64,000 nt of DNA from Archangium primigenium (GCF_016904885.1 NZ_JADWYI010000001.1:8427224-8491223), one strand, 5' to 3'. Counted from the first letter of the stretch, positions 7,141-18,739 are shown. A program made the numbers and translations. The notes: generated from the sequence alone by a model not told the origin.

Positions 7141-7896
7141 CTACGGCACGCGCTTGAGGGCCTGCAGCCGCAGGGAAATCTTCATCAGGTCCAGGCCCAT
7201 CTTCGGCACGTCCCAGAACGTCAGCCGGGACTGGGCGATGTCCTGCCAGGTCTGCAGCGGCACCTCCACGAAGTCCTGGGGCGACAGGCCGGGCAGTCCC
7301 GGACGGTCCACCATCAGGCGCCCGATGAGCTCCACGTCGAAGGCCCACCGGCTGGAGAAGGGCGTGGCGAGCACGGCGCGCAGCCGCTCCGAGCGGCGGA
7401 AGGCCTTGGCGCCACACTGGGTGTCGTAGACCCGGAGCGAGAGGATGAGCGAGGCGAAGGTGGCGAACACGCGGCCCATGTAGTGGCGCTTCGCGCTGCG
7501 CTCGATGTGCGTGCCCAACAGGGCCACGCGCGCGCCCATGACGACCGCCACGTCCCGCGCCTCGAGGACCTCCAACAGGCGCGCCATCTCCTCGGGCGGC
7601 GTCGCCAGGTCCGCGTCCAGGTAGGCGATGCGCTCGGCCCCCGCGTCATAGGCCGCCAGCATGCCCGCGCGCACCGCCTCCGCCTTGCCGCCGTTCCTCG
7701 GCTGGACGAGCACGCGCGCCTGACCCGGAAGACGCGCGCACAGGTCCGAGAGGACCGCCTGGGTGTCATCGGTGGAGCCGTCGTCCACGAAAATCAGATG
7801 CACGTTCGGGTACTGACGGAACTGCTCGAAGCCCGTCAACGAGAGCCTGCGCGCCTCGTTGTAACAGGGAACCACCACCACGGATGAAGCCTTCAC
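7141..7896 (-). CDS. Glycosyltransferase family 2 (polyprenyl-phosphate hexosyltransferase type)
   Basis: A 251-residue GT-A enzyme. VVVVPCYNEARRL opens the fold, VDDGSTDDT is the nucleotide-binding strand, YLDADLATPPEE carries the metal-binding DxD-like motif, and VYDTQCGAKAFRRS is the signature of the dolichyl/polyprenyl-phosphate glucosyltransferase group. There is no C-terminal membrane pair, unlike bacterial CsbB or GtrB, so it resembles the soluble catalytic part of eukaryotic ALG5/DPM1. It starts with GTG at 7896, preceded by GGGAGGG. The YfhO gene follows after 13 bp, so the two are probably co-transcribed and functionally paired. Confidence 0.85.
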   Translation of the reverse strand: MKASSVVVVPCYNEARRLSLTGFEQFRQYPNVHLIFVDDGSTDDTQAVLSDLCARLPGQARVLVQPRNGGKAEAVRAGMLAAYDAGAERIAYLDADLATPPEEMARLLEVLEARDVAVVMGARVALLGTHIERSAKRHYMGRVFATFASLILSLRVYDTQCGAKAFRRSERLRAVLATPFSSRWAFDVELIGRLMVDRPGLPGLSPQDFVEVPLQTWQDIAQSRLTFWDVPKMGLDLMKISLRLQALKRVP

Positions 7897-7985: not shown

Positions 7986-9533
7986 TCAGAACAGCTTCCA
8001 CCACTTCTTCTTGGGCGCCTCGGGAGACGCGGGGGTCGGCTCCGTCGGAGGGGCAGGAGGGGGGGTGGGCTCGGGCGCCGGGGCCGCGGTGGCGGCCGGC
8101 GGAGGCGTCGGCGGCGCGGGAGGCGGACGGCGGCCATAGCGCCGCTCGAGCTCCCGGGCCTTGAGCTCGAGCGCCCGGCCCTTCAGCGGATCCACCATGG
8201 CCACGAAGTGGGCGTAGCCCACCGCGGAGGAGAGCACGTCCGCGCCCGCGCCCCAGCGCTTGCCCTCGGGGCCCGTCTTGTCCAGTTGGTGCAGCAGGGC
8301 GCGGAAGCGCTTGAGGGTCTGGCGATCCACGCCGGGCTTGTCGTTCACGACGACGCCGGTCACCTCCTGCTGGCGACCCCGGCGCAGCACCCGGGTCTTG
8401 TCCGGGTGGGGCGTGAAGTCCTCCTGCTTCACGAGCCAGCGCACCCGCCGCAGCAGCGTGCCGGGATCATGGTGCCCGGGACCGGTGGCGGAGAACGTCA
8501 GGTCATCCGCGTAGCGGGTGTAGACGAAGCCGAGCGCGCGCGCGGTGCCCGTGAGCCGCGCGTCCAACCGGCGGCACAGCAGGTTGGTGATCGCGGGCGA
8601 GCTGGGCGCGCCCTGCGGCAGCCGCCGCGTGCCCTGGGAGACGTAGTAGCGCCGTCCATCCAGCTCCACCTCGTCCACGTCGGGCTCGGTGCACAGCAGC
8701 GCCAGCACCGTGGCGGTGGCCTCGCTGTAGCCCAGGTGCATGAAGGCGAACTTGACGCGCCGGTAGCCCACCGAGGGGAAGAAGTCCTTCAGGTCCAGGT
8801 TCACCACCACGGCGGCGCCCACGTGGGGCCGGGCGTTGGTGACGATGGAGCGTCCGGGGCGGAAGCCATGGGCGGCCTCGTGCACCGGCACCTTCTCCAG
8901 CACCTGCGTCAGCACCCAGGCCTGCGCCGCCTTGAGCCGAGGCAGGGGCGCGGAGATGAGCCGCGTGCCCCCCGTCTTCTTGGGCAGGAGGAAGCGCACG
9001 TAGTGGTGCGTGGTGGACGCGGTGCGCGTGAAGCACAGGGCGCGCAGTTGGCCCACGCGCAACCCCAGGGCCTCGGCGAGCGCCTCGGGGGACGTGAGCA
9101 CCGGCAGGCCCAGCCGGGTGAGCCGCGCCTCGTCCGTCTCACGCGCGCTCAGTCCGCCAGACACGCCCCGGCCGAGGAAGAGCAGCTCCTTGCCCTTGCG
9201 CTCGCGCCACGCCGCCGCCTTGGCCACGCGCTCGCGCTCGCGCCGCTCCCGCGTCTCCTGCTGCTTGCGCTTGCTCTCCACGAGCCGCCGCTTGCGCAGC
9301 TCGCGCTTCATCGCCTCCAGGTTGCCCAGCCGGTGTTGCTCGGTGGTCAGGGCCCGGAGCTGGCCCATCAGGTCATTGCGCCGGTGGATGACCTCCGCGG
9401 GATCTCCCGGCTGCTCGGTGCGGGCCGGCCAGAAGCCCAGACGCACCATGTCCTCGAGGATGACTTCCTCGCGCGAGGTGGCGCGAATGCGGTCATACAG
9501 CTCTTGTCGCGTACGGGGAGGTTGGGAGGACAT
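7986..9533 (-). CDS. Retron reverse transcriptase (Mx162/Sa163 type)
   Basis: Copies part of the msr-msd RNA into branched multicopy single-stranded DNA. From ATG 9533 it has 515 residues. Residues 75-112 are a strongly basic, helical stretch. The RT domain (about 150-450) shows the retron-specific NARPH (NAxxH, 233-237), LPQGAPSSP, the catalytic TRYADDLTFS (YADD 341-344) and the retron VTG motif (391-393). After about residue 468 comes a Pro/Ala-rich tail ending in KKKWWKLF. Length and motifs match my memory of myxobacterial Mx162/Sa163 retron RTs. A GTG at 9539 is an alternative start. The msr-msd RNA lies directly upstream, and the last base of its a2 repeat is 17 bases before the ATG. Confidence 0.95.
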   Translation of the reverse strand: MSSQPPRTRQELYDRIRATSREEVILEDMVRLGFWPARTEQPGDPAEVIHRRNDLMGQLRALTTEQHRLGNLEAMKRELRKRRLVESKRKQQETRERRERERVAKAAAWRERKGKELLFLGRGVSGGLSARETDEARLTRLGLPVLTSPEALAEALGLRVGQLRALCFTRTASTTHHYVRFLLPKKTGGTRLISAPLPRLKAAQAWVLTQVLEKVPVHEAAHGFRPGRSIVTNARPHVGAAVVVNLDLKDFFPSVGYRRVKFAFMHLGYSEATATVLALLCTEPDVDEVELDGRRYYVSQGTRRLPQGAPSSPAITNLLCRRLDARLTGTARALGFVYTRYADDLTFSATGPGHHDPGTLLRRVRWLVKQEDFTPHPDKTRVLRRGRQQEVTGVVVNDKPGVDRQTLKRFRALLHQLDKTGPEGKRWGAGADVLSSAVGYAHFVAMVDPLKGRALELKARELERRYGRRPPPAPPTPPPAATAAPAPEPTPPPAPPTEPTPASPEAPKKKWWKLF

Positions 9534-9550
9534 GGGCACTCACGCGCAAG

Positions 9551-9575
9551 GGAAGGGTTCGTCCACGCGGCGGTC
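9551..9575 (-). repeat. Retron a2 inverted repeat
   Basis: Complement of a1. Both differences lie next to each other in the middle (positions 12-13 of the repeat). It marks the 3' end of the structured RNA, 17 bases before the RT start codon. Confidence 0.92.
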
Positions 9576-9622
9576 CGGGAGCACCTTCGAACCGCTCTCG
9601 GGACTGGACCGTCTCAACTCCA

Positions 9623-9696
9623 GCGGGTCCCCCTCCCTGTGGCGCGCGGAACCGACGCGGTTGACACCGCCGCCGCTACAGGGAGGGAGGACCCGC
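9623..9696 (-). repeat. msd long stem-loop
   Basis: Arms at 9696-9678 and 9640-9623 pair almost perfectly (a polypyrimidine/polypurine stem with one extra base on one side). The 37-base loop contains a small AACCG-CGT-CGGTT hairpin. This would be the double-stranded part of the msDNA. Confidence 0.85.
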
Positions 9697-9781
9697 ACAG
9701 TGAAGAGCGGGCCAGTGATGCATGACAGGCCATGAGGCATGGACGGCGAAACACCGCCCGGATTGCAAGGAACAGCCCCCT

Positions 9782-9806
9782 GACCGCCGCGTGCGCGAAC
9801 CCTTCC
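9782..9806 (-). repeat. Retron a1 inverted repeat
   Basis: Minus strand GGAAGGGTTCG, two variable bases, then ACGCGGCGGTC-type sequence. It pairs with a2 at 9551-9575, 23 of 25 positions matching. It marks the 5' end of the msr-msd transcript. Confidence 0.92.
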
Positions 9807-9811
9807 GTACG

Positions 9812-11458
9812 TCATGAGCGAGCCGCCCGTGCATTCCCGAGCCGCAACGCGAGCAGGTGCTCGCAGGGGCCCCGGAACAGCTTGTTCTGCTGGAAGAAAT
9901 TGCACGTGCACTCGCCGAAAACCATACGCTGATCCGCGTCCAGTCGCAAAGAGGGACGAAGCACGTGCTTGCCTTCGCGCACCGTGCCCTCCAGCGTCAG
10001 CGAGCCGTCCGTGGCCGAGGGCTGGGCGCGCACCGTCACCGACCCCGCGTCCACGAAGCGCGTGGCGCTCGCCTCGCGCTCGTTGGAGAAGCGCAGCGCC
10101 TCCACGGGCAGGGGCTCGCGGCTCAACTCGCGCGCCCGGTACACGCCCTTGTTCAAGTCCCAGATGGCGCGTCCCGCCTGCGTCCACGCCGACAGCGCGC
10201 CGAGCACCGTGCCCCGCTCCAGCCCCAGCCGCGCGGCCAGGGCCTCCGGGGTGGCCAGCCACGTCTCCTTGAGCGCCCCGAAGACCCGGTCGCGCGTGAG
10301 CGCGTCCACCTGGCCCCGCGGCGCCATCAGGTCGAAGTTGCCCGCGGTGGACCAGTCATTGGCCGTCCACCCGGACAGGCCCAGGGTGAAGGACAGGTCG
10401 CCCAGGTCCGCCACGTAGAAGGACGGCAGGCCCGTGCCCAGCAGGTGCACGGTGAAGCGCCGCGCCACGGGGATGAGCCGCTCGAGCACGCCCAGGCGCC
10501 GTCGGCCCCACACGCGGATGTCGTGCGTGCCGGGGCCCTCGTACACCGAGCGGGGACACTCCACCCGGGTGCCCCACGGCTCCAGCACGAGCGTCACCGG
10601 CCGGCCCGGCGTGAGCAGGTAGCGCAGCGCGCGCGGCCCCTTCTTCTCCTTGTGGCGCTTGAGCACGAAGAGCAGGTTGTGCACGTCCATGGGGTGCAGG
10701 CTGAAGCGCACCGCGGGCAGCGCCATGGCCGAGTTGACCTGGAGGAAGCCCCGCACCCACGAGTCCGGCAGGTCGATCTTCACTTCCTTGTAGGCCGCGT
10801 CCCCGCCCGTCTGGGTGGTGAAGCCGCTCGGGTCCACCGTGAAGCGCGTCTGCTTGTAGGAGCGGATCTTCTGGAACTCGTCGTACAGCGGCGAGGAGTA
10901 GTCCACGTTGGTGGTGCCGCAGGAGAACTCGCCCACGTCCTGGAACACCTCGTAGCTGGCGCCCAGCCGCCCGTAGCTGGACTCGTCCTGGCTGAAGCAC
11001 TCGAAGAAGGCCTCGTCCGGGTGCACGGTGATGACCGGATCCAACACGAACCACAGGTCCCGGTTCTTCTCGTACAGGTATTGGAAGTAGCGCTGGCGGG
11101 CCGCGTAGAACGGCTGCATGCGCGAGGCGCTCTCCTTCTCCAGCGCGTGCAGCTCCTCGCGCAGGACCTTGACCCGGCCGGCCACCTCGCGGCGCTGCCC
11201 GGCGATGGCCTCCAGGTCCACCTGCTCCTGCTGGGCGGCCCACGCCTTGTAGGCCGTCTTGTCCTTGGGCTTGAAGCGCAGGTCGGACACCACCACGTCG
11301 TGCAACGCGGAGATGGCCTCGCGGAAGGCCACGTTCTGGCGCAGCTGGCCCGAGAAGTAGGTGGGCGGCCGGGTGACGTCCGGGGAGAAGGACAGCTCCG
11401 TGCGATCCCCCTGGTTGTTCACCGCGGTGCTGCCCCGGTACGCGTAATCAAATTGCAC
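9812..11458 (-). CDS. WHSWIM protein: winged helix plus C-terminal SWIM zinc finger, retron accessory
   Basis: A 548-residue protein of unknown biochemical role, encoded immediately before the msr-msd RNA. The C-terminus carries a SWIM zinc finger: C517-T-C519, then C532-E-H534 (CxC-x12-CxH). Ahead of it, about residues 400-460 (ALKETWLATPEALAARLGL onwards) read like a winged helix, so nucleic-acid binding is likely. The large N-terminal part has a helical segment near 90-130 and beta-rich stretches I do not recognise. I recall a WHSWIM protein with an ARM/HEAT partner as the accessory pair of the retron class containing Mx162/Sa163 (type XIII in published classifications). It overlaps the WGR-HEAT gene by 11 bases, so the two are translationally linked. 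Confidence 0.85.
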   Translation of the reverse strand: MQFDYAYRGSTAVNNQGDRTELSFSPDVTRPPTYFSGQLRQNVAFREAISALHDVVVSDLRFKPKDKTAYKAWAAQQEQVDLEAIAGQRREVAGRVKVLREELHALEKESASRMQPFYAARQRYFQYLYEKNRDLWFVLDPVITVHPDEAFFECFSQDESSYGRLGASYEVFQDVGEFSCGTTNVDYSSPLYDEFQKIRSYKQTRFTVDPSGFTTQTGGDAAYKEVKIDLPDSWVRGFLQVNSAMALPAVRFSLHPMDVHNLLFVLKRHKEKKGPRALRYLLTPGRPVTLVLEPWGTRVECPRSVYEGPGTHDIRVWGRRRLGVLERLIPVARRFTVHLLGTGLPSFYVADLGDLSFTLGLSGWTANDWSTAGNFDLMAPRGQVDALTRDRVFGALKETWLATPEALAARLGLERGTVLGALSAWTQAGRAIWDLNKGVYRARELSREPLPVEALRFSNEREASATRFVDAGSVTVRAQPSATDGSLTLEGTVREGKHVLRPSLRLDADQRMVFGECTCNFFQQNKLFRGPCEHLLALRLGNARAARS

Positions 11459-14400
11459 GGCGGACCTCCACCGGACGGATGGAGAAGGGAACGCTCAGCG
11501 AGGGCTGGGCCTTGACGATGGCGAGCATCGCCTCGAGCGCCGCGGCGCGGTGCTCCACGGCGATGGTGGCGGACAGGCGGTGCAACACCTCCAGCGCCAC
11601 GCGCCCCGAGGCCTCGCTCCCCGCGCCCTCGCGCTTGAGGAAGCCGAGCACGCGCTGGCGCGCCACCCGGCCCTTGTTCACCTGGCCCAGCACCCGGATG
11701 AAGAAGGGCGCGAGCCGGGCCACCCGCTCGGGATGGCCCAGGGCGAAACGATCCAGGTAGTTGGTGGCGAACAGCTGCACCTCGGGCATGGGGTGCTCGG
11801 ACAGGCGCAGGAGCAGCTCGGGCCCCTCGTCCTCGCGGAAGGAGCGCGTGAGCAACTCCCGGCCAAACGCCTGCACGTCCTTGCGCACGCTGTCGGCCAC
11901 CGAGACGAGCACCTCCAGGGTGAAGTCCTCCGGGGCGAAGCGCTCGCGGAAGTAGCGGAAGCCGAACTCCCGCGCATCCGTCCAGCGCGCGTCGAGCAGG
12001 CCCACCGCGGTGGACAGCTCGGCGCGCACCTCGGGGACATGGGCCTCCAGCCAGCGCCAGCCCCACGCACGCACCGCGCGCACCTCGTGGCCGGACAGCC
12101 GCACCACCCGCGCCACGTCCACCGTCAGCTCCGCGCCCCGGCGCTCCAGCAGCACTCCGCCCAGCGCCTGCGCGTCCCCATCCTCGGACTCGAGCAGCCG
12201 CCACGTCGTCTCCGCGGGCAGCCCGGCCAGCGCGGACGCCAGCTCCTCGGACAAGAGCGACACCACATGGCCCGGGACGCCCTCGGGCAGCCGGCGGCGC
12301 AGCAGGGCCGCCAGCAGCGACTCCACGAGCCGCGCGCCCGCCGCGGGACTCACCGCGCCCAACCGCGCGAGCAGGGGCCGCACCGCGGCGCGCACGTCCG
12401 CCACGCGGCTCGTCGCCAGGTGCGAGAGCAGCGACTCCTGGGCGAGCAGCGTGCTCTCCGACTCGGCGAGCCGCGCGAGCAGCCGCATGCCCATGGCCCG
12501 CAGGGGCGCATGCTCCGCCTGCACCAGGCGCAGGAGCAGCTCCTCCGGAAGGGGCTCGCCGCGCGGATCCCGACGCAGCAGGAGCTCGCCGCCCACCTCC
12601 TGCACCTGGGTCAGCGGATGGCCGAGCAGGTCGCGCACCACCTCCAGGCCCACCGGGCGCGGGGAGGCGTCCAACACGGCGAGCACCACGCGGCCCACGT
12701 CCACCGCGAGCGCCGGGTCCTCGCCCGACGGGAGCGCCAGCAGGGCCGCCACCAGCCGACCCACGAGCGTCTGGGCCGTCGCGGCCGGCAACACCGAGGC
12801 GCGCACGAGCTGGAAGGCATAGGCCCGGGTGTCCGCGAACGGCGCGGTGGCCAGACCCGCGAGGAAGCCCGTGTCCTCGAGCAGCGTGTGGCGCACCTCG
12901 TCCATCCACTGGAAGGCCTGCTGCCGGGCGGGCGCGTAGGCGGCGCGCGCCACCGCGAGCAGCAGCGCCCGGGGCTCGCGTCGCGCGTCCAGCCGCTTGG
13001 AGGCCAGCTCGAAGCCGAGGCGCGCCGTCGTCTCGTAGGGACGCCCGAGCAGCATGCTCAGCGCGTCCACGTCCAGCTCGGCGAGGAAGTCCGGGCAGGC
13101 GCGCAGGGCCCGCGTGGCGAACGTGTGCACCGGGGCGCAGCGGCTCTCGTCCAGCAGGTGCAGCAGGCCCTGCGGCGTGCGCTCCCACAGCCGCGGGAAG
13201 GCCTCCTCGCGCACGGACGGCACGGGGGAGCCCGGCGTCCACGAGGCCCGGCAGCGGAACATGAGCGAGTTCTCGACGGGCTCGTAGCGGGGGCTCTCGC
13301 GGTGGAGCACCTGGTTGAAGGCCCAGTAGGGCCACCACGCATCCCAGTGCCGCTGGTGGCGGCCCCACCCGGAGACGGAAGGCGCGTGCGCGTCCGAGTC
13401 CTGGAAGGCGAGCAACACCCCCACCGCCATGCGCACGTAGTCCGGGCTCTGCGCCTCGCCCAGCTCGCGCAGCGTGCGCCACACCCGGCGCCGCAGGTAC
13501 AGGCGCGTCTCCCGACTGAAGGCCCGGACGTGCTGGCTGCCCAGGGAGCGCTCCTTCTCGTAGCGCCAGGCGATGAGGCCGAACACCTCGCCGTCCTTCC
13601 GGTACTCGGCCATCTTGAAGAGGTGGCGCAGCGTGCGCACCGTCCGCACCCGGAAGGGCAGCGTGCGCAGCGCCTTCAAGAAGGCGGGCCGGGCCAGCTC
13701 CGCGTCCACCCGGTAGAGCGCCTCGAGCACCTCGGGGGCATCGTCCGCGCCGGACGACAAGTGCGCCTCGAGCGCCTCGGCGAAGCCCGGGGCATCCTGC
13801 TTCTCGAGCCGCAGGCGCAGCGCCGCGGGCAGCTTCTGCTGCTCGTCCCGGCGGAACTCGGCCCGGGTGGCCTCGTCGGAGAGCTGGAGCAGCGCCTCGG
13901 TGGCCATGCGGCGCACCATGTCCGGCGTGGACGGGTCCGCGTAGAGCCGCCCGAGCGTGGAGACCGAGGCCTCGGAGCCCAGCCGGCCCAGGGCGGCGAC
14001 GATGCAGTAGGCGCGCAGGGGCGTGGCGCGCTCCAACAGCGGCAACAGCAGGGGCTCGGCGGCGCGCACGCGCAGCTCCCCCAGGCTCCAGACGATGCGC
14101 TCGAGCGAGCGCGTCTTGGGCGCGCGCGTGCTGCTCCGGCGGAACCACCGGGACGCGGTGGACGCGGCGGGGGCGCTCGCCGCCCGTTGCAACTGCTCGA
14201 GCAGGACGCGCTCGCGAGGGTCCTCCCCGGGCGCGGGCGGCGGCCGGGGCGGCGGCGCGGCCGCGGGCGGACGGGGCTCGGACGTGCTCCCGGGCGCGCC
14301 CTCCGGCAGGTAGCCCGAGGTGACCTTGGACTGGACGAGCTTGTCGTAGACCTTGCGCGCCTCCGACTCGGAGACAGGCGCGGTGGTCTTCGAGCCCTCC

Positions 14401-14537
14401 TTGAGGCTCGTGCCCCGGCGGCCATAGCGGAAGTTGACCACGCACTGGCCCGGCGAGACCTCGAGCAGGTCCACCTCGTACACCTTGTCGCTCTTGCCTT
14501 CCTGGAAGAGCAGTCGCGCCTGCGCGAGCAGCTTCAC
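11448..14537 (-). CDS. WGR domain plus HEAT/ARM repeat protein, retron accessory
   Basis: A 1029-residue cytoplasmic protein. Residues about 5-75 form a WGR domain (YEVDLLEV, VNFRYGRRGTS), the nucleic-acid-binding fold known from PARP1 and from bacterial molybdate-regulator-like proteins. A Pro/Ala linker (about 80-110) follows, and the rest is helical HEAT/ARM-type repeats (RVRAAEPLLLPLLERATPLR, DVRAAVRPLLARLGAV, EVRAVRAWGWRWLEAHVPEV). Such scaffolds bind protein or nucleic acid; no enzyme motif is visible. It starts one base after the WGR-propeller gene ends and overlaps the WHSWIM gene by 11 bases, so all three must share a transcript. It matches the ARM component recalled for type XIII retrons. 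Confidence 0.85.
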   Translation of the reverse strand: MKLLAQARLLFQEGKSDKVYEVDLLEVSPGQCVVNFRYGRRGTSLKEGSKTTAPVSESEARKVYDKLVQSKVTSGYLPEGAPGSTSEPRPPAAAPPPRPPPAPGEDPRERVLLEQLQRAASAPAASTASRWFRRSSTRAPKTRSLERIVWSLGELRVRAAEPLLLPLLERATPLRAYCIVAALGRLGSEASVSTLGRLYADPSTPDMVRRMATEALLQLSDEATRAEFRRDEQQKLPAALRLRLEKQDAPGFAEALEAHLSSGADDAPEVLEALYRVDAELARPAFLKALRTLPFRVRTVRTLRHLFKMAEYRKDGEVFGLIAWRYEKERSLGSQHVRAFSRETRLYLRRRVWRTLRELGEAQSPDYVRMAVGVLLAFQDSDAHAPSVSGWGRHQRHWDAWWPYWAFNQVLHRESPRYEPVENSLMFRCRASWTPGSPVPSVREEAFPRLWERTPQGLLHLLDESRCAPVHTFATRALRACPDFLAELDVDALSMLLGRPYETTARLGFELASKRLDARREPRALLLAVARAAYAPARQQAFQWMDEVRHTLLEDTGFLAGLATAPFADTRAYAFQLVRASVLPAATAQTLVGRLVAALLALPSGEDPALAVDVGRVVLAVLDASPRPVGLEVVRDLLGHPLTQVQEVGGELLLRRDPRGEPLPEELLLRLVQAEHAPLRAMGMRLLARLAESESTLLAQESLLSHLATSRVADVRAAVRPLLARLGAVSPAAGARLVESLLAALLRRRLPEGVPGHVVSLLSEELASALAGLPAETTWRLLESEDGDAQALGGVLLERRGAELTVDVARVVRLSGHEVRAVRAWGWRWLEAHVPEVRAELSTAVGLLDARWTDAREFGFRYFRERFAPEDFTLEVLVSVADSVRKDVQAFGRELLTRSFREDEGPELLLRLSEHPMPEVQLFATNYLDRFALGHPERVARLAPFFIRVLGQVNKGRVARQRVLGFLKREGAGSEASGRVALEVLHRLSATIAVEHRAAALEAMLAIVKAQPSLSVPFSIRPVEVRRAI

Positions 14538-14538
14538 G

Positions 14539-15963
14539 TCAGCCCACCAGCTTCCGGATGTCGCCCTGCGCCCGGTAGAAGCCGCCGCGGCCCGACTCGC
14601 GCACCGCCGCCACCACGTAGCGCGCGCCCGCCTGGCGGATGTCCTTGGGGAACTGCACGTGCCAGTCCGGACGGAAGCCGGGAGAGAGCACCCGCACGCG
14701 CACCTGGGCCCCGTCCTGGTAGCACTCCACGAGCACGCCCGAGCCCACCTCGCGGATGGTCTCCACCGTGGCCGAGGGCACGGCCGCCACCGGCTTGGGC
14801 GCCTGGACGGTGCGGGCCGTGGGCACCGAGCCGGACTGCGCGGACTGGATGGCCTTCTCGCTCGCGTCGATGCAGGCGAACGAGCCGTCCGTGGTCACCA
14901 GGTAGAGCCGGTCCTGGAAGAACTGCATGGAGTAGGCCGAGCCACACCCGGTGGCCAGCTTCCACAGCCGCTCGCCCTTGTGGTTGAAGCAGTAGACGCT
15001 GGACATGTTGTCGCCCGCGAAGACGTAGCGGCCGTCGTCCACCGCGGCGCAGGAGAACACCGAGGCGTCGCACTTCATGACGGGCCCCGGCTCCCCCTTC
15101 TTGGAGAAGCGGTGCACCACGCCCCGGTTGGTGCAGGCGTAGAGCGAGGACTCCTCCTGCCAGCCGAACTGCACGCCGCCCTGGGTGGCCTGGTGCCAGA
15201 TCTCCCGCCCGTCCTCCCAGTCGTACATGGTCAGGCCGCGCGAGTGGCCGTGGTACATGCCCAGCTCATCGCAGCGCACCATCCACCCGCAGTCGCCGGT
15301 GCTCTGCTTCATCCACTGCGACTCGTCCTCGTGGTTGACGGCGGTGAGCTGGCCGCGACGGTCCGCCACGCCGAGCACCCCGTCCTTGATGTCCAGCCAG
15401 AAGATGTCCACGTCCTCGGAGATGGAGTACGCCACCCGCGCCACCTTGCCGCCCAGGTCGTAGACGTTGCCGTCGTCACACCCGGCGTAGAGCCACTGGT
15501 CATCGGCGACGATGCACTTGACGCCCTCGGGCAGGCGGTGCTGGGACAGGCTGTTGCCCTCGAGGTCCATCGAGTAGATGGAGCCGCCCTGGTTGCCCAC
15601 CCAGCAGCGCTGGTCATCCACGAAGATGCCGAAGGCCTGGTCGCCGGACTTGAACTTCCAGAGCAGCGGGGCCTGGTTCGCGGTGGACTGACCGCTGGAG
15701 ATCTCCCGGCGGGTGACGGTGCGCTTCTTGCGCTCGCCCATGACGGCGGGGGCATAGCCCTTGCGCGTCTTCTCGCGCAGCTTCTTCTGGGCCTCGGCGA
15801 GCGCCTTCTCGGGAGAGGCGAGCTCGGACACCTGGGTCTGGCCCTTGTCCCCGATGCGGCCGTAGCGCACGGTGAGCGTGCTGCCCGCGACCGTCACCTC
15901 GTAGAACTTGTGCGCGCTGCTGCCCTCTTCCGACAGCTCCAGGTACGTCCGTTCCTCGGCCAT
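14539..15963 (-). CDS. WGR domain plus beta-propeller protein at head of the retron operon
   Basis: A 474-residue protein. Residues about 5-80 are a WGR domain (YEVTVAGSTLTVRYGRIG), clearly related to that of the next gene. Residues about 105-400 are repeated blocks of WD40/PQQ-type beta-propeller blades (WVGNQGGSIYSMDLEG, LYAGCDDGNVYDLGGK, YVFAGDNMSSVYCFNHKGE). The C-terminal about 70 residues are a separate small beta domain. ATG at 15963 is chosen because GGGGAGA lies 7 bases upstream and the WGR domain starts at once; a longer in-frame start at 16071 would overlap the divergent aminopeptidase gene. The one-base gap to the WGR-HEAT gene makes it part of the retron operon. Its role is unknown; a sensor or scaffold is a guess. 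Confidence 0.82.
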   Translation of the reverse strand: MAEERTYLELSEEGSSAHKFYEVTVAGSTLTVRYGRIGDKGQTQVSELASPEKALAEAQKKLREKTRKGYAPAVMGERKKRTVTRREISSGQSTANQAPLLWKFKSGDQAFGIFVDDQRCWVGNQGGSIYSMDLEGNSLSQHRLPEGVKCIVADDQWLYAGCDDGNVYDLGGKVARVAYSISEDVDIFWLDIKDGVLGVADRRGQLTAVNHEDESQWMKQSTGDCGWMVRCDELGMYHGHSRGLTMYDWEDGREIWHQATQGGVQFGWQEESSLYACTNRGVVHRFSKKGEPGPVMKCDASVFSCAAVDDGRYVFAGDNMSSVYCFNHKGERLWKLATGCGSAYSMQFFQDRLYLVTTDGSFACIDASEKAIQSAQSGSVPTARTVQAPKPVAAVPSATVETIREVGSGVLVECYQDGAQVRVRVLSPGFRPDWHVQFPKDIRQAGARYVVAAVRESGRGGFYRAQGDIRKLVG

Positions 15964-16063: not shown

Positions 16064-18739
16064 ATGCCCATGACCTTCCGGCGCGTCTCGAGTGTCCTGC
16101 TCGTCCTCCTGAGCGCCTGTGGTGCGCGTCAGGCGCGACCCGAGCCCGAAGCCTCGCTCGCGCCCGTGTCGCCCTCCCTGCGCCTGCCCACCCAGGTCCG
16201 GCCCACCGCCTACACCGCCGCGCTCACCCTGGACCCGGCCCAGCCCACCTTCCAGGGGGTGATCGACATCGACCTGGAGGTGCGCGAGGCCACCTCGACC
16301 CTCTGGCTCCAGGGCCGTGCGCTCACGGTGACGGAGGCGGTGCTGACCGTGGGGGACCAGCCCGTGCGCGTCACGCCCACAAAGGGCACCGGGGACTTCC
16401 TCGGCTTCGTGTCCGAACAGCCGCTCGCCCCCGGGCACGCGCACTTGCGCCTGATCTATCAAGGACAGCTCTCCGAGCGCGAGACCTCGGGGGCCTTCCG
16501 CGCCCAGGACGACGGTGTCTGGTATGCCTATACCCAGTTCCAGCCGCTGGGGGCCCGGCGGGTCTTCCCCTGCTTCGACGAGCCGGGCTTCAAGGTGCCC
16601 TGGCAGCTCACCTTCCATGTGCCCGCGGGCAGCGTGGCCGTCACCAACACCCCGCTCCTCGCCGAGGAGCAGCGCGCCGACGGCGGCACCACCTTCCGCT
16701 TCGCGCGCACCCCGCCCTTGCCCAGCTACCTCCTCGCCTTCGGCGTGGGCCCCTTCGACTTCGTCGAGGCACGGCCCTCGGGCCAGAAGGCCGTGCGCAC
16801 CCGCGTCCTCCTGCCCCGGGGCCGCGCACCCGAGGGCGCCTATGCCGCCCGCATCACCCCGGAGATCCTCGGCCCGTTGGAGGATTACTTCGGCCAGCCC
16901 TACCCGTACGAGAAGCTGGACGTGCTCGCCGTGCCCAACCTGGGCAGTGCCATGGAGCACCCGGGGCTGGTGACGTTCGACGCGGCGTTCATGCTCGCCC
17001 GGCCCGAGGCCTACACGCTCTGGCGGCAGCGCGCCGTCTACAGCACCCAGGTGCACGAGCTCGCGCACCAGTGGTTCGGCGACCTGGTCACCCTGGCGTG
17101 GTGGGACGACCTGTGGCTCAACGAGGCCTTCGCCACCTGGGCCGAGCCGCGCATGCTCGAGAGCGCCCAACCCACGTGGGACGTGCCCCTGCGGCGGGTG
17201 CTCGACCGCTCGTCGGCGCTCGACCGGGACAGCCTGATGACGGCGCGCCGCATCCGCCAGCCCATCCAGAGCGAGAGCGACATCGTCAACGCCTTCGACG
17301 GCATCACCTACAACAAGGGCGCGGCGGTGCTGAGCATGACCGAGCGCTGGCTGGGCCGGGAGGTCTTCCAGCGGGGCGTGCGCCGCTACTTGTCCGCCCA
17401 CGCCCAGGCAAACGCCACCGCGGAGGACTTCCTCGCGGCCCTGTCCGCCGAGGCGGGCCAGGACGTGTCGGGCGTGCTCGGCTCCTTCCTGGACCAGCCG
17501 GGCGCCCCGCTCGTCACCGCGCGGCTGGACTGCTCGGCGCGGGTGCCCACGGTGAGGTTGTCGCAGCGCCGCTTCCTGCCCCTGGGCTCCACGGGCGACA
17601 CGGCGCTGTCGTGGAAGGTGCCGCTGTGCGTGCGCCACGGCGACGGCCAGACGGCGGGCCAGGCCTGCACGGTGCTCGCGGGCACCACGGGCGAGCTGCC
17701 CCTGACCGGGGCGAAGGGCTGTCCCACGTGGATGCTGCCCAACGCGGAGGGCGCGGGCTACTACCGCACCGCGATGGAGGCGCGCGCGCTCGGCGCACTG
17801 CTGACCACGGAGCGCCGCCACCTCACCCGGCCCGAGCGTGTGGCCCTCCTCGGAGATGTCCAGGCCCTGGCGAAGGCGGGCGTCATGCCCGCGGCGGAGG
17901 CGCTCGCCCTGCTGCCGGGCCTGGCGGGAGAAACGGATCGTTACGTGTTCGAGGCGGCCACGGACCTGCTGTCCCTGATGCGGCCCGAGCTGCTCACCGA
18001 GGCCGGCCGCGCCCACCGCGAGCGTTTCCTGCGCGAGACCTATGGGGCCCGGGCCCGGGCGCTGGGCTTTACCCCGCGCGCCGGGGAGGACGAGGACACC
18101 CGACTGCTGCGACCCGCGCTCTTGCGCCTCGCGGGGCGGGAAGGCGGAGAGCCCGCACTAGTGGCCGAGGCCCGCGCGCTCGCCGAGCGCTGGTTGAGCG
18201 ACCGCCAGGCCCTCGTGCCGGATCTCGTGGACTCCACCCTGGCCTTGGCCTCGGCCCATGGCGACGCGGCCCTGCACACGAAGTTGATGACGGCGCTGCG
18301 CGCGGAGAAGGAGCGCGGCAGGCGCCAGCAGCTCATCTGGGCACTCGGCTTCTTCCGCGACCCGAACCTGGTGAAGAAGAACCTGGCGCTGTTGCTGGAG
18401 CCCGATGTGGACCCGCGTGAGCTGACCATCCTGCTCATGATGAGCGGCAACCAATCGCGGCACCCCGAGGTGGCCGAGGCCTTCACCCAGGCGCACTACG
18501 ACGCACTGGCCGCGCGCCTGCCCGAGGAGGACGAGGCGCGCCTGGCGCGGGTGGCCTCCAGCCACTGCGATGCCGCCCACCGCCAGGGCACCGCGGCCTT
18601 CTTCACCGAGCGTATGGCCCGCGCCCAGGGAGGAGCCCGGATGCTCGCCCAGGTGTTGGAGTCCATCGACCTGTGCATCGCCTTCAAGGCCGCCCAGGGC
18701 GCGAGCATCGAGTCCTTCCTCGCCGCGCCCCCTCCCTGA
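16064..18739 (+). CDS. M1-family zinc aminopeptidase, lipoprotein
   Basis: An 891-residue metallopeptidase that removes N-terminal residues from peptides. It has the M1 zinc site H331-E-L-A-H335 with Glu354 after the usual 18-residue spacing, and the substrate-binding GxMEN loop in the variant form GSAMEHPG. A lipoprotein signal is present (VLLVLLSAC, lipidated Cys near 19), so it should sit in the envelope, which suits a predatory or scavenging lifestyle. ERAP1-like C-terminal helices fill residues about 560-890. Two starts are possible, ATG 16064 and 16070, both just before the signal. It is divergent from the retron operon with a 100-bp shared upstream region. Confidence 0.92.
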   Translation: MPMTFRRVSSVLLVLLSACGARQARPEPEASLAPVSPSLRLPTQVRPTAYTAALTLDPAQPTFQGVIDIDLEVREATSTLWLQGRALTVTEAVLTVGDQPVRVTPTKGTGDFLGFVSEQPLAPGHAHLRLIYQGQLSERETSGAFRAQDDGVWYAYTQFQPLGARRVFPCFDEPGFKVPWQLTFHVPAGSVAVTNTPLLAEEQRADGGTTFRFARTPPLPSYLLAFGVGPFDFVEARPSGQKAVRTRVLLPRGRAPEGAYAARITPEILGPLEDYFGQPYPYEKLDVLAVPNLGSAMEHPGLVTFDAAFMLARPEAYTLWRQRAVYSTQVHELAHQWFGDLVTLAWWDDLWLNEAFATWAEPRMLESAQPTWDVPLRRVLDRSSALDRDSLMTARRIRQPIQSESDIVNAFDGITYNKGAAVLSMTERWLGREVFQRGVRRYLSAHAQANATAEDFLAALSAEAGQDVSGVLGSFLDQPGAPLVTARLDCSARVPTVRLSQRRFLPLGSTGDTALSWKVPLCVRHGDGQTAGQACTVLAGTTGELPLTGAKGCPTWMLPNAEGAGYYRTAMEARALGALLTTERRHLTRPERVALLGDVQALAKAGVMPAAEALALLPGLAGETDRYVFEAATDLLSLMRPELLTEAGRAHRERFLRETYGARARALGFTPRAGEDEDTRLLRPALLRLAGREGGEPALVAEARALAERWLSDRQALVPDLVDSTLALASAHGDAALHTKLMTALRAEKERGRRQQLIWALGFFRDPNLVKKNLALLLEPDVDPRELTILLMMSGNQSRHPEVAEAFTQAHYDALAARLPEEDEARLARVASSHCDAAHRQGTAAFFTERMARAQGGARMLAQVLESIDLCIAFKAAQGASIESFLAAPPP

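Follow-up and report, generated by a model that had tools for sequence, protein, structure and literature searches.

A type XIII retron of the WGR-HEAT branch with a fourth, propeller-encoding gene in Archangium primigenium

Organization of the retron locus

The stretch of A. primigenium DNA analyzed here (the window, 64,000 nucleotides) carries four genes and one RNA, all on the minus strand:

14539-15963, minus strand: WGR-propeller protein, 474 aa, with WGR at 5-74, a PQQ-type beta-propeller at ~100-380, and a C-terminal domain of ~80 aa (Pfam WGR 5.5e-20, PQQ_2, and Beta-prop; no PADLOC match)
11448-14537, minus strand: WGR-HEAT protein, 1029 aa, with WGR at 13-79 followed by an unbroken HEAT/ARM solenoid (PADLOC WGR_XIII, Pfam WGR and HEAT_2, AF2, Foldseek)
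9812-11458, minus strand: WHSWIM protein, 548 aa, with a predicted PCNA-like two-domain fold at ~34-361, a winged helix at ~386-442, and a SWIM zinc finger C517xC519...C532xH534 (PADLOC SWIM_XIII, Pfam SWIM, AF2, Foldseek)
9567-9810, minus strand: msr-msd RNA, with an a1/a2 stem, SL1, and a long msd hairpin (folding, covariance model)
7986-9539, minus strand: retron reverse transcriptase (RT), 517 aa from GTG 9539 or 515 aa from ATG 9533 (PADLOC RT_XIII, Pfam RVT_1)

Transcription proceeds in the order WGR-propeller, WGR-HEAT, WHSWIM, RNA, and RT. A single base (14538) separates the propeller and WGR-HEAT genes, the WGR-HEAT and WHSWIM genes share 11 bases (11448-11458), and the 272 bases between WHSWIM and RT are occupied by the RNA. 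The initial annotation had described four genes and an RNA at these positions on one strand, and its 1-base gap and 11-base overlap agreed with our re-reading of the coordinates. The RT probably starts at ATG 9533 and not at GTG 9539, as its relatives begin with MSSQPPR.

The operon is bordered by a divergent M1 aminopeptidase gene at 16064 and a glycosyltransferase gene at 7141-7896. In the relative L138, whose whole locus was read, the four genes were kept but the flanking genes were not those of the window; thus, the unit consists of the four genes and the RNA. Its distribution is patchy, with both RT and propeller missing from three other genomes of the genus. When these three genomes were searched for an empty site, the downstream flanking gene found no match.

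Type XIII assignment and two branches of accessory proteins

PADLOC 2.0.0 matched three of the proteins to type XIII models over nearly their whole length (RT_XIII, E 7.4e-181; SWIM_XIII, E 1.4e-232; WGR_XIII, E = 0, 1102 bits), and the top matches of the RT were all retron RT models. The RT comprises an N-terminal extension, the motifs NARPH (NAxxH), YADD, and VTG, a proline-rich linker, and PKKKWWKLF at the C-terminus. Among the 101 aligned RTs, NAxxH and YxDD were present in all and VTG in 100. The window thus contains a retron RT, a WHSWIM protein, and a HEAT/ARM accessory, the set that defines type XIII, and the type XIII assignment of the initial annotation was overwhelmingly confirmed.

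The flanks fetched around 80 RT relatives, drawn from genomes of many phyla, contained WHSWIM in 75 and WGR-HEAT in 74 cases, with contig ends accounting for at least one miss; most relatives kept the order of RT, WHSWIM, and WGR-HEAT found in the window. Among the findings that, according to the initial annotation, would speak against its reading were an RT outside the retrons and related RTs that never carry these neighbors; the RT proved to be of the retron class, and its partners are conserved beside related RTs.

Type XIII retrons were found in 78 of 195 Myxococcota genomes. In the RT tree, the window belongs to a clade of 12 myxobacterial RTs linked to propellers, which has full support and lies within a large WGR-HEAT branch. 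A second branch holds 17 other Myxococcota RTs, and the gene upstream of WHSWIM there encodes a protein of ~2,000-2,200 residues in which HEAT repeats come after an N-terminal WD40 propeller, corresponding to HEAT-ARM_XIII (PDLC02919) of PADLOC. From its RNA (CAGC context) and taxonomy, we infer that this second branch is Mx162-like. The earlier description of the window as Mx162/Sa163-like therefore holds in a broad sense, but membership in that subgroup was rejected because the RT falls in a separate well-supported (starred) branch, the HEAT accessory is a WGR-HEAT protein, and the window-type RNA model does not match the loci of that side. A propeller and a HEAT protein occur in both branches: one has them as a WD40-HEAT fusion, and part of the other has WGR-HEAT together with a WGR-propeller encoded by its own gene. 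At three further loci (L145:5704-8749, L147:10611-13671, and L161:6183-9243), a third class was seen, in which WHSWIM and RT are present and neither WGR-HEAT nor WD40-HEAT was recognized upstream.

The AF2 model of WGR-HEAT (pLDDT 90) consists of the WGR domain and one unbroken all-alpha solenoid, its Foldseek matches were HEAT solenoids, and no catalytic domain was recognized in it. The presence of WGR on an ARM/HEAT protein had been regarded as undescribed; this was incorrect, as the WGR_XIII model of PADLOC already represents that protein. Two WGR-DUF4132 (MolR-like) genes, paralogous in the WGR domain, lie ~0.8 Mb from the retron in the same genome (L134:9350-18822; C1 ~9.22-9.23 Mb). Two Pseudanabaena loci carry a 297-aa gene (MKTDTLFYQLFQSF...) between WHSWIM and WGR-HEAT near the retron (L013:4617-5510 and L015:5363-6256).

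A separate class of msr-msd RNA

The RNA adjoining the RT has a folding energy of -159 kcal/mol, with z = -7.8 relative to dinucleotide shuffles. Arm a1 lies within ~9779-9806 and arm a2 within ~9551-9575; besides the stem-loop SL1, the landmarks are an invariant TTGCAA (9768-9763), CCAGTC at 9607, and TTCGAAGG at 9591. An alignment of 18 loci folded into an a1/a2 stem, a short stem-loop, and a single long msd hairpin, with compensatory changes in 41 of 59 pairs. The covariance model built from it matched the window, itself one of the 18 sequences, at 9567-9810 (222 bits), and 67 of the 71 related RT loci searched in addition to the window, the 18 model sequences being included in these. The spacing between TTGCAA and CCAGTC was 159-163 nt in all 38 loci with both motifs, while the sequence of the intervening hairpin varied freely. 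The inverted repeats and long hairpin of a retron RNA are thus conserved together with the RT.

msDNA is a 2'-5' branched molecule primed from a conserved G, usually in a TAGC or CAGC context. For Mx162/Sa163 retrons, the published priming context is CAGC (PMC6868368). The loci of the other branch show CATCAGCC, whereas window-type RNAs show CTTGCAA and lack the usual AGC context; the priming G of the window is therefore given as a prediction, G9766. The covariance model matched none of the seven Mx162-side loci searched (L135, L137, L139-L141, L146, and L147), and the Rfam scan of the window RNA matched no family. The RNA is not of the Mx162 type and forms a covarying class of its own in the WGR-HEAT branch. 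Tandem copies of window-type msr-msd were observed upstream of single RTs, four in a Saprospiraceae locus (L045:5131-6369) and two each in L007:9431-9937, L006:1433-2006, and L046:9209-9968.

WHSWIM and a predicted sliding-clamp fold

WHSWIM is the best conserved accessory protein, with a mean column identity of 57% compared to 31% for WGR-HEAT. When its AF2 model (pLDDT 77, pTM 0.72) was compared with the PDB using Foldseek, PCNA and other sliding clamps appeared throughout the top 50 matches (best E 1.8e-9), mostly with TM scores by target of ~0.6-0.7 across whole PCNA chains; clamps likewise dominated the matches in the viral library. The secondary structure fits four beta-alpha-beta-beta-beta units, corresponding to two clamp domains, together with a helical insertion, the winged helix, and the SWIM finger. 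WHSWIM is thus predicted, from one AF2 model, to contain a two-domain sliding-clamp fold of the PCNA type. This fold is seen in the predicted structure only: sequence searches in Pfam, PDB sequences, and hhalign (run against two PCNA sequences) returned no clamp match.

Relatives of WHSWIM were also found without an RT, directly followed by large DUF6493/DUF7824 genes. Such plasmid-borne pairs of a SWIM protein and a very large partner were located in three bacterial groups (L191:7815-11760, L192:7752-14085, and L193:7782-12070), and they are possibly a separate conflict system. They suggest that the accessory pair can act without a retron, and further that the retron may be a later addition to an older module of two genes, one for a SWIM protein and one for a large partner. 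DUF6493 was considered as a relative of WGR-HEAT and set aside, as no homology was detected.

C-terminal tails of the RTs

The C-termini of 77 complete RTs fell into 44 with a TM-like segment (Proteobacteria), 24 with a Trp-rich or amphipathic basic end (e.g., KKKWWKLF), and nine with neither, eight of which were cyanobacterial. In L011, one of these 24, the tail scored as "WW" by script is not a true WW tail; the protein has an amphipathic VWKLLGKLGGKKK terminus instead. No membrane-like tail was found in the cyanobacterial RTs. Membrane association is the simplest reading of the TM-like and Trp-tail groups.

The Trp-rich tail might instead bind the WHSWIM clamp, as polymerase C-termini do on sliding clamps. 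A flexible linker carries this short, conserved peptide, and a clamp fold is predicted for its would-be partner. However, orthologous RTs carry TM-like segments at the same end in 44 of 77 cases, for which reason this reading was demoted to a rival, and cyanobacterial RTs with WHSWIM partners carry neither tail type. We consider clamp binding by the tail unlikely and keep membrane association as the preferred reading.

Distribution and probable recruitment of the WGR-propeller

The propeller protein, whose start is conserved as MAxxxTYLELSE, matched none of the 5,027 models of PADLOC. The earlier statement that this gene is undescribed holds against these models and the searchable open papers. 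A propeller gene was found beside 10 of the 80 retron loci, in Myxococcota, three Bacteroidota, one Pseudanabaena, and one unclassified bacterium; those outside Myxococcota share 49-59% protein identity with the window. Depending on the locus, the gene stands upstream of WGR-HEAT, between that gene and WHSWIM, or following either WHSWIM or the RT.

Of the 195 Myxococcota genomes, 13 contained the propeller, in full length in 12 and partially in one. In all 12 genomes with a full-length copy, it shares the strand of the best-scoring RT and lies ~5-6 kb upstream of it, and one of these genomes has a second, unlinked copy. The sole high-scoring Myxococcota RT without a propeller (G017) is on a contig that ends within WGR-HEAT. 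The gene was absent from 394 other sampled Bacteroidota and present in 13 of 386 Cyanobacteria (~3%), two of which (L013 and G916, the latter being locus L182) have it close to a type XIII RT. In two genomes selected by their RT, the propeller was unlinked or ~25 kb away. Most type XIII retrons have no propeller, and free-standing members of the family occur in Streptomyces, Nonomuraea, Deinococcus, and most propeller-bearing Cyanobacteria. Retron-linked propellers do not form a single clade in the propeller tree, where the label needs ~5 changes (at least two forced by starred branches), and propeller-linked RTs occupy separate places in the RT tree.

Two simple accounts were discarded on these grounds. 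Free-standing relatives on plasmids and in Cyanobacteria rule out a retron-specific propeller, and the two trees do not support a single recruitment. Free-standing occurrence combined with retron linkage in changing positions points to repeated recruitment, so that the propeller looks like an existing family recruited several times to type XIII retrons.

A more skeptical account would be that the retron is an ordinary type XIII system with a housekeeping WGR-propeller upstream by chance, which has no role in it. The free-standing genes in many genomes, the absence from most type XIII loci, and the lack of one linked clade would all be expected on that account. A chance neighbor is nevertheless difficult to reconcile with the rarity of the gene in all three groups surveyed, its adjacency to this RT clade in every Myxococcota genome with a full-length copy (the junction in the window being a single base), and its differing arrangements next to type XIII retrons of several further lineages. 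We therefore judge this account improbable and favor repeated recruitment.

The C-terminal ~80 residues of the propeller protein also occur on vWA proteins, for example in L168:7396-9255 and in L182:6397-8280, where the gene comes immediately after a type XIII RT and encodes the domain twice. At L188:9599-13141, a free-standing WGR-propeller gene is followed almost directly by a gene for a propeller-DNA_alkylation (AlkD, HEAT-like) fusion.

Proposed function

The retrons that first revealed msDNA belong to type XIII, for which we know of no worked-out mechanism. As a whole, the locus is best explained, in our moderately confident judgment, as a type XIII retron of the WGR-HEAT branch with a recruited fourth protein, the WGR-propeller, acting as a guard. 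The firm parts of this explanation are gene content, operon structure, the retron-type RT, an msr-msd RNA with covariation, and the propeller's repeated presence next to such retrons across several phyla; the function as an anti-phage guard is taken by analogy from other retrons. The guard model is favored because WGR-HEAT has no recognized catalytic domain and the four proteins contain no known toxin domain.

In this model, the RT would copy the RNA into branched msDNA and keep hold of it, and in most lineages the RT-msDNA would be located at the inner membrane. WHSWIM, with its predicted clamp fold, and WGR-HEAT, as a scaffold, would bind this nucleoprotein and be held inactive by it. The WGR-propeller may be an added recognition or adaptor subunit, standing in for the WD40 propeller that is fused to HEAT in Mx162-side retrons. 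A phage that alters the msDNA or the complex would release the WHSWIM/HEAT module, and growth would stop. As no nuclease, NADase, protease, or toxin domain was recognizable in any of the four proteins, the released module would probably act on DNA or replication.

WGR and clamp folds are DNA-break and replication modules, and with the WGR of PARP3 among the sequence matches, the retron could also be a regulator or DNA-damage checkpoint of the cell, with the clamp-fold WHSWIM and WGR domains as sensors of DNA ends and msDNA serving as decoy or co-factor. Yet all retrons of solved function that we know of are phage defenses, and the patchy operon of the window, missing from its three congeners, speaks against such a role. 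The wide occurrence of type XIII in myxobacteria (the 78 genomes above) and the vertical inheritance proposed for Mx162/Sa163 retrons (PMC6868368) would be compatible with a checkpoint, to which we assign a low probability; defense by a guarded complex remains our preferred reading.

A bolder version of the guard model can be put forward tentatively, as possible but less likely than not to be correct in full: WHSWIM would be the dedicated clamp-like core of type XIII and would encircle or grip either msDNA or phage DNA under replication, the RT tail would hold it at the membrane, and the propellers, fused or recruited, would be exchangeable sensors.

PADLOC already covers the type XIII retron, including its WGR-HEAT form. 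In PADLOC, Pfam, Rfam, and the searchable open papers, no description was found of the variant with a propeller, the distinct class of RNA, the clamp fold predicted for WHSWIM, or the classes of RT tail. The predicted clamp fold, the fused or recruited propeller, and the membrane-like RT tails give concrete, testable parts for a type XIII mechanism. The RNA model of the WGR-HEAT branch would let annotators find and type these retrons, which Rfam misses at present. If the bolder version of the guard model is true, a clamp, a HEAT scaffold, and an end-binding WGR would make up a checkpoint-like defense architecture undescribed for any retron.

Comparison with known systems

The WGR_XIII/SWIM_XIII/RT_XIII form of type XIII is the closest known system, with the same three proteins in the same order; the window adds a WGR-propeller gene for which PADLOC has no model. 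Mx162/Sa163-side retrons (L135, L137, L139-L141, and L146) share the RT_XIII RT, the SWIM_XIII protein, an upstream HEAT protein, and a propeller, there fused to HEAT. They differ in having a WD40-HEAT protein of ~2,000 aa in place of WGR-HEAT and WGR-propeller, a CAGC-context RNA, and an RT in a separate branch.

Free-standing WGR-propellers of Streptomyces, Nonomuraea, Deinococcus, and Cyanobacteria are 44-59% identical to that of the window over the whole length (matches in the plasmid collection), but no RT, WHSWIM, or WGR-HEAT was annotated or detected nearby in the regions checked. The propeller family also resembles the beta-propeller MoxR-vWA conflict systems (PMC7159879) in the association of propeller and vWA, the only shared feature compared.

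The RT-less pairs on Diaphorobacter, Asticcacaulis, and Streptomyces plasmids are alike in their SWIM protein, with 25-27% identity across the clamp, winged-helix, and SWIM parts; they are unlike the window in having no RT or msr-msd and a big partner that is not a detectable WGR-HEAT homologue. Compared with PCNA, 9-1-1, and beta clamps, the WHSWIM model matches whole two-domain PCNA chains, whereas the protein differs from them in its lack of sequence similarity and in its long helical insertion, winged helix, and SWIM finger.
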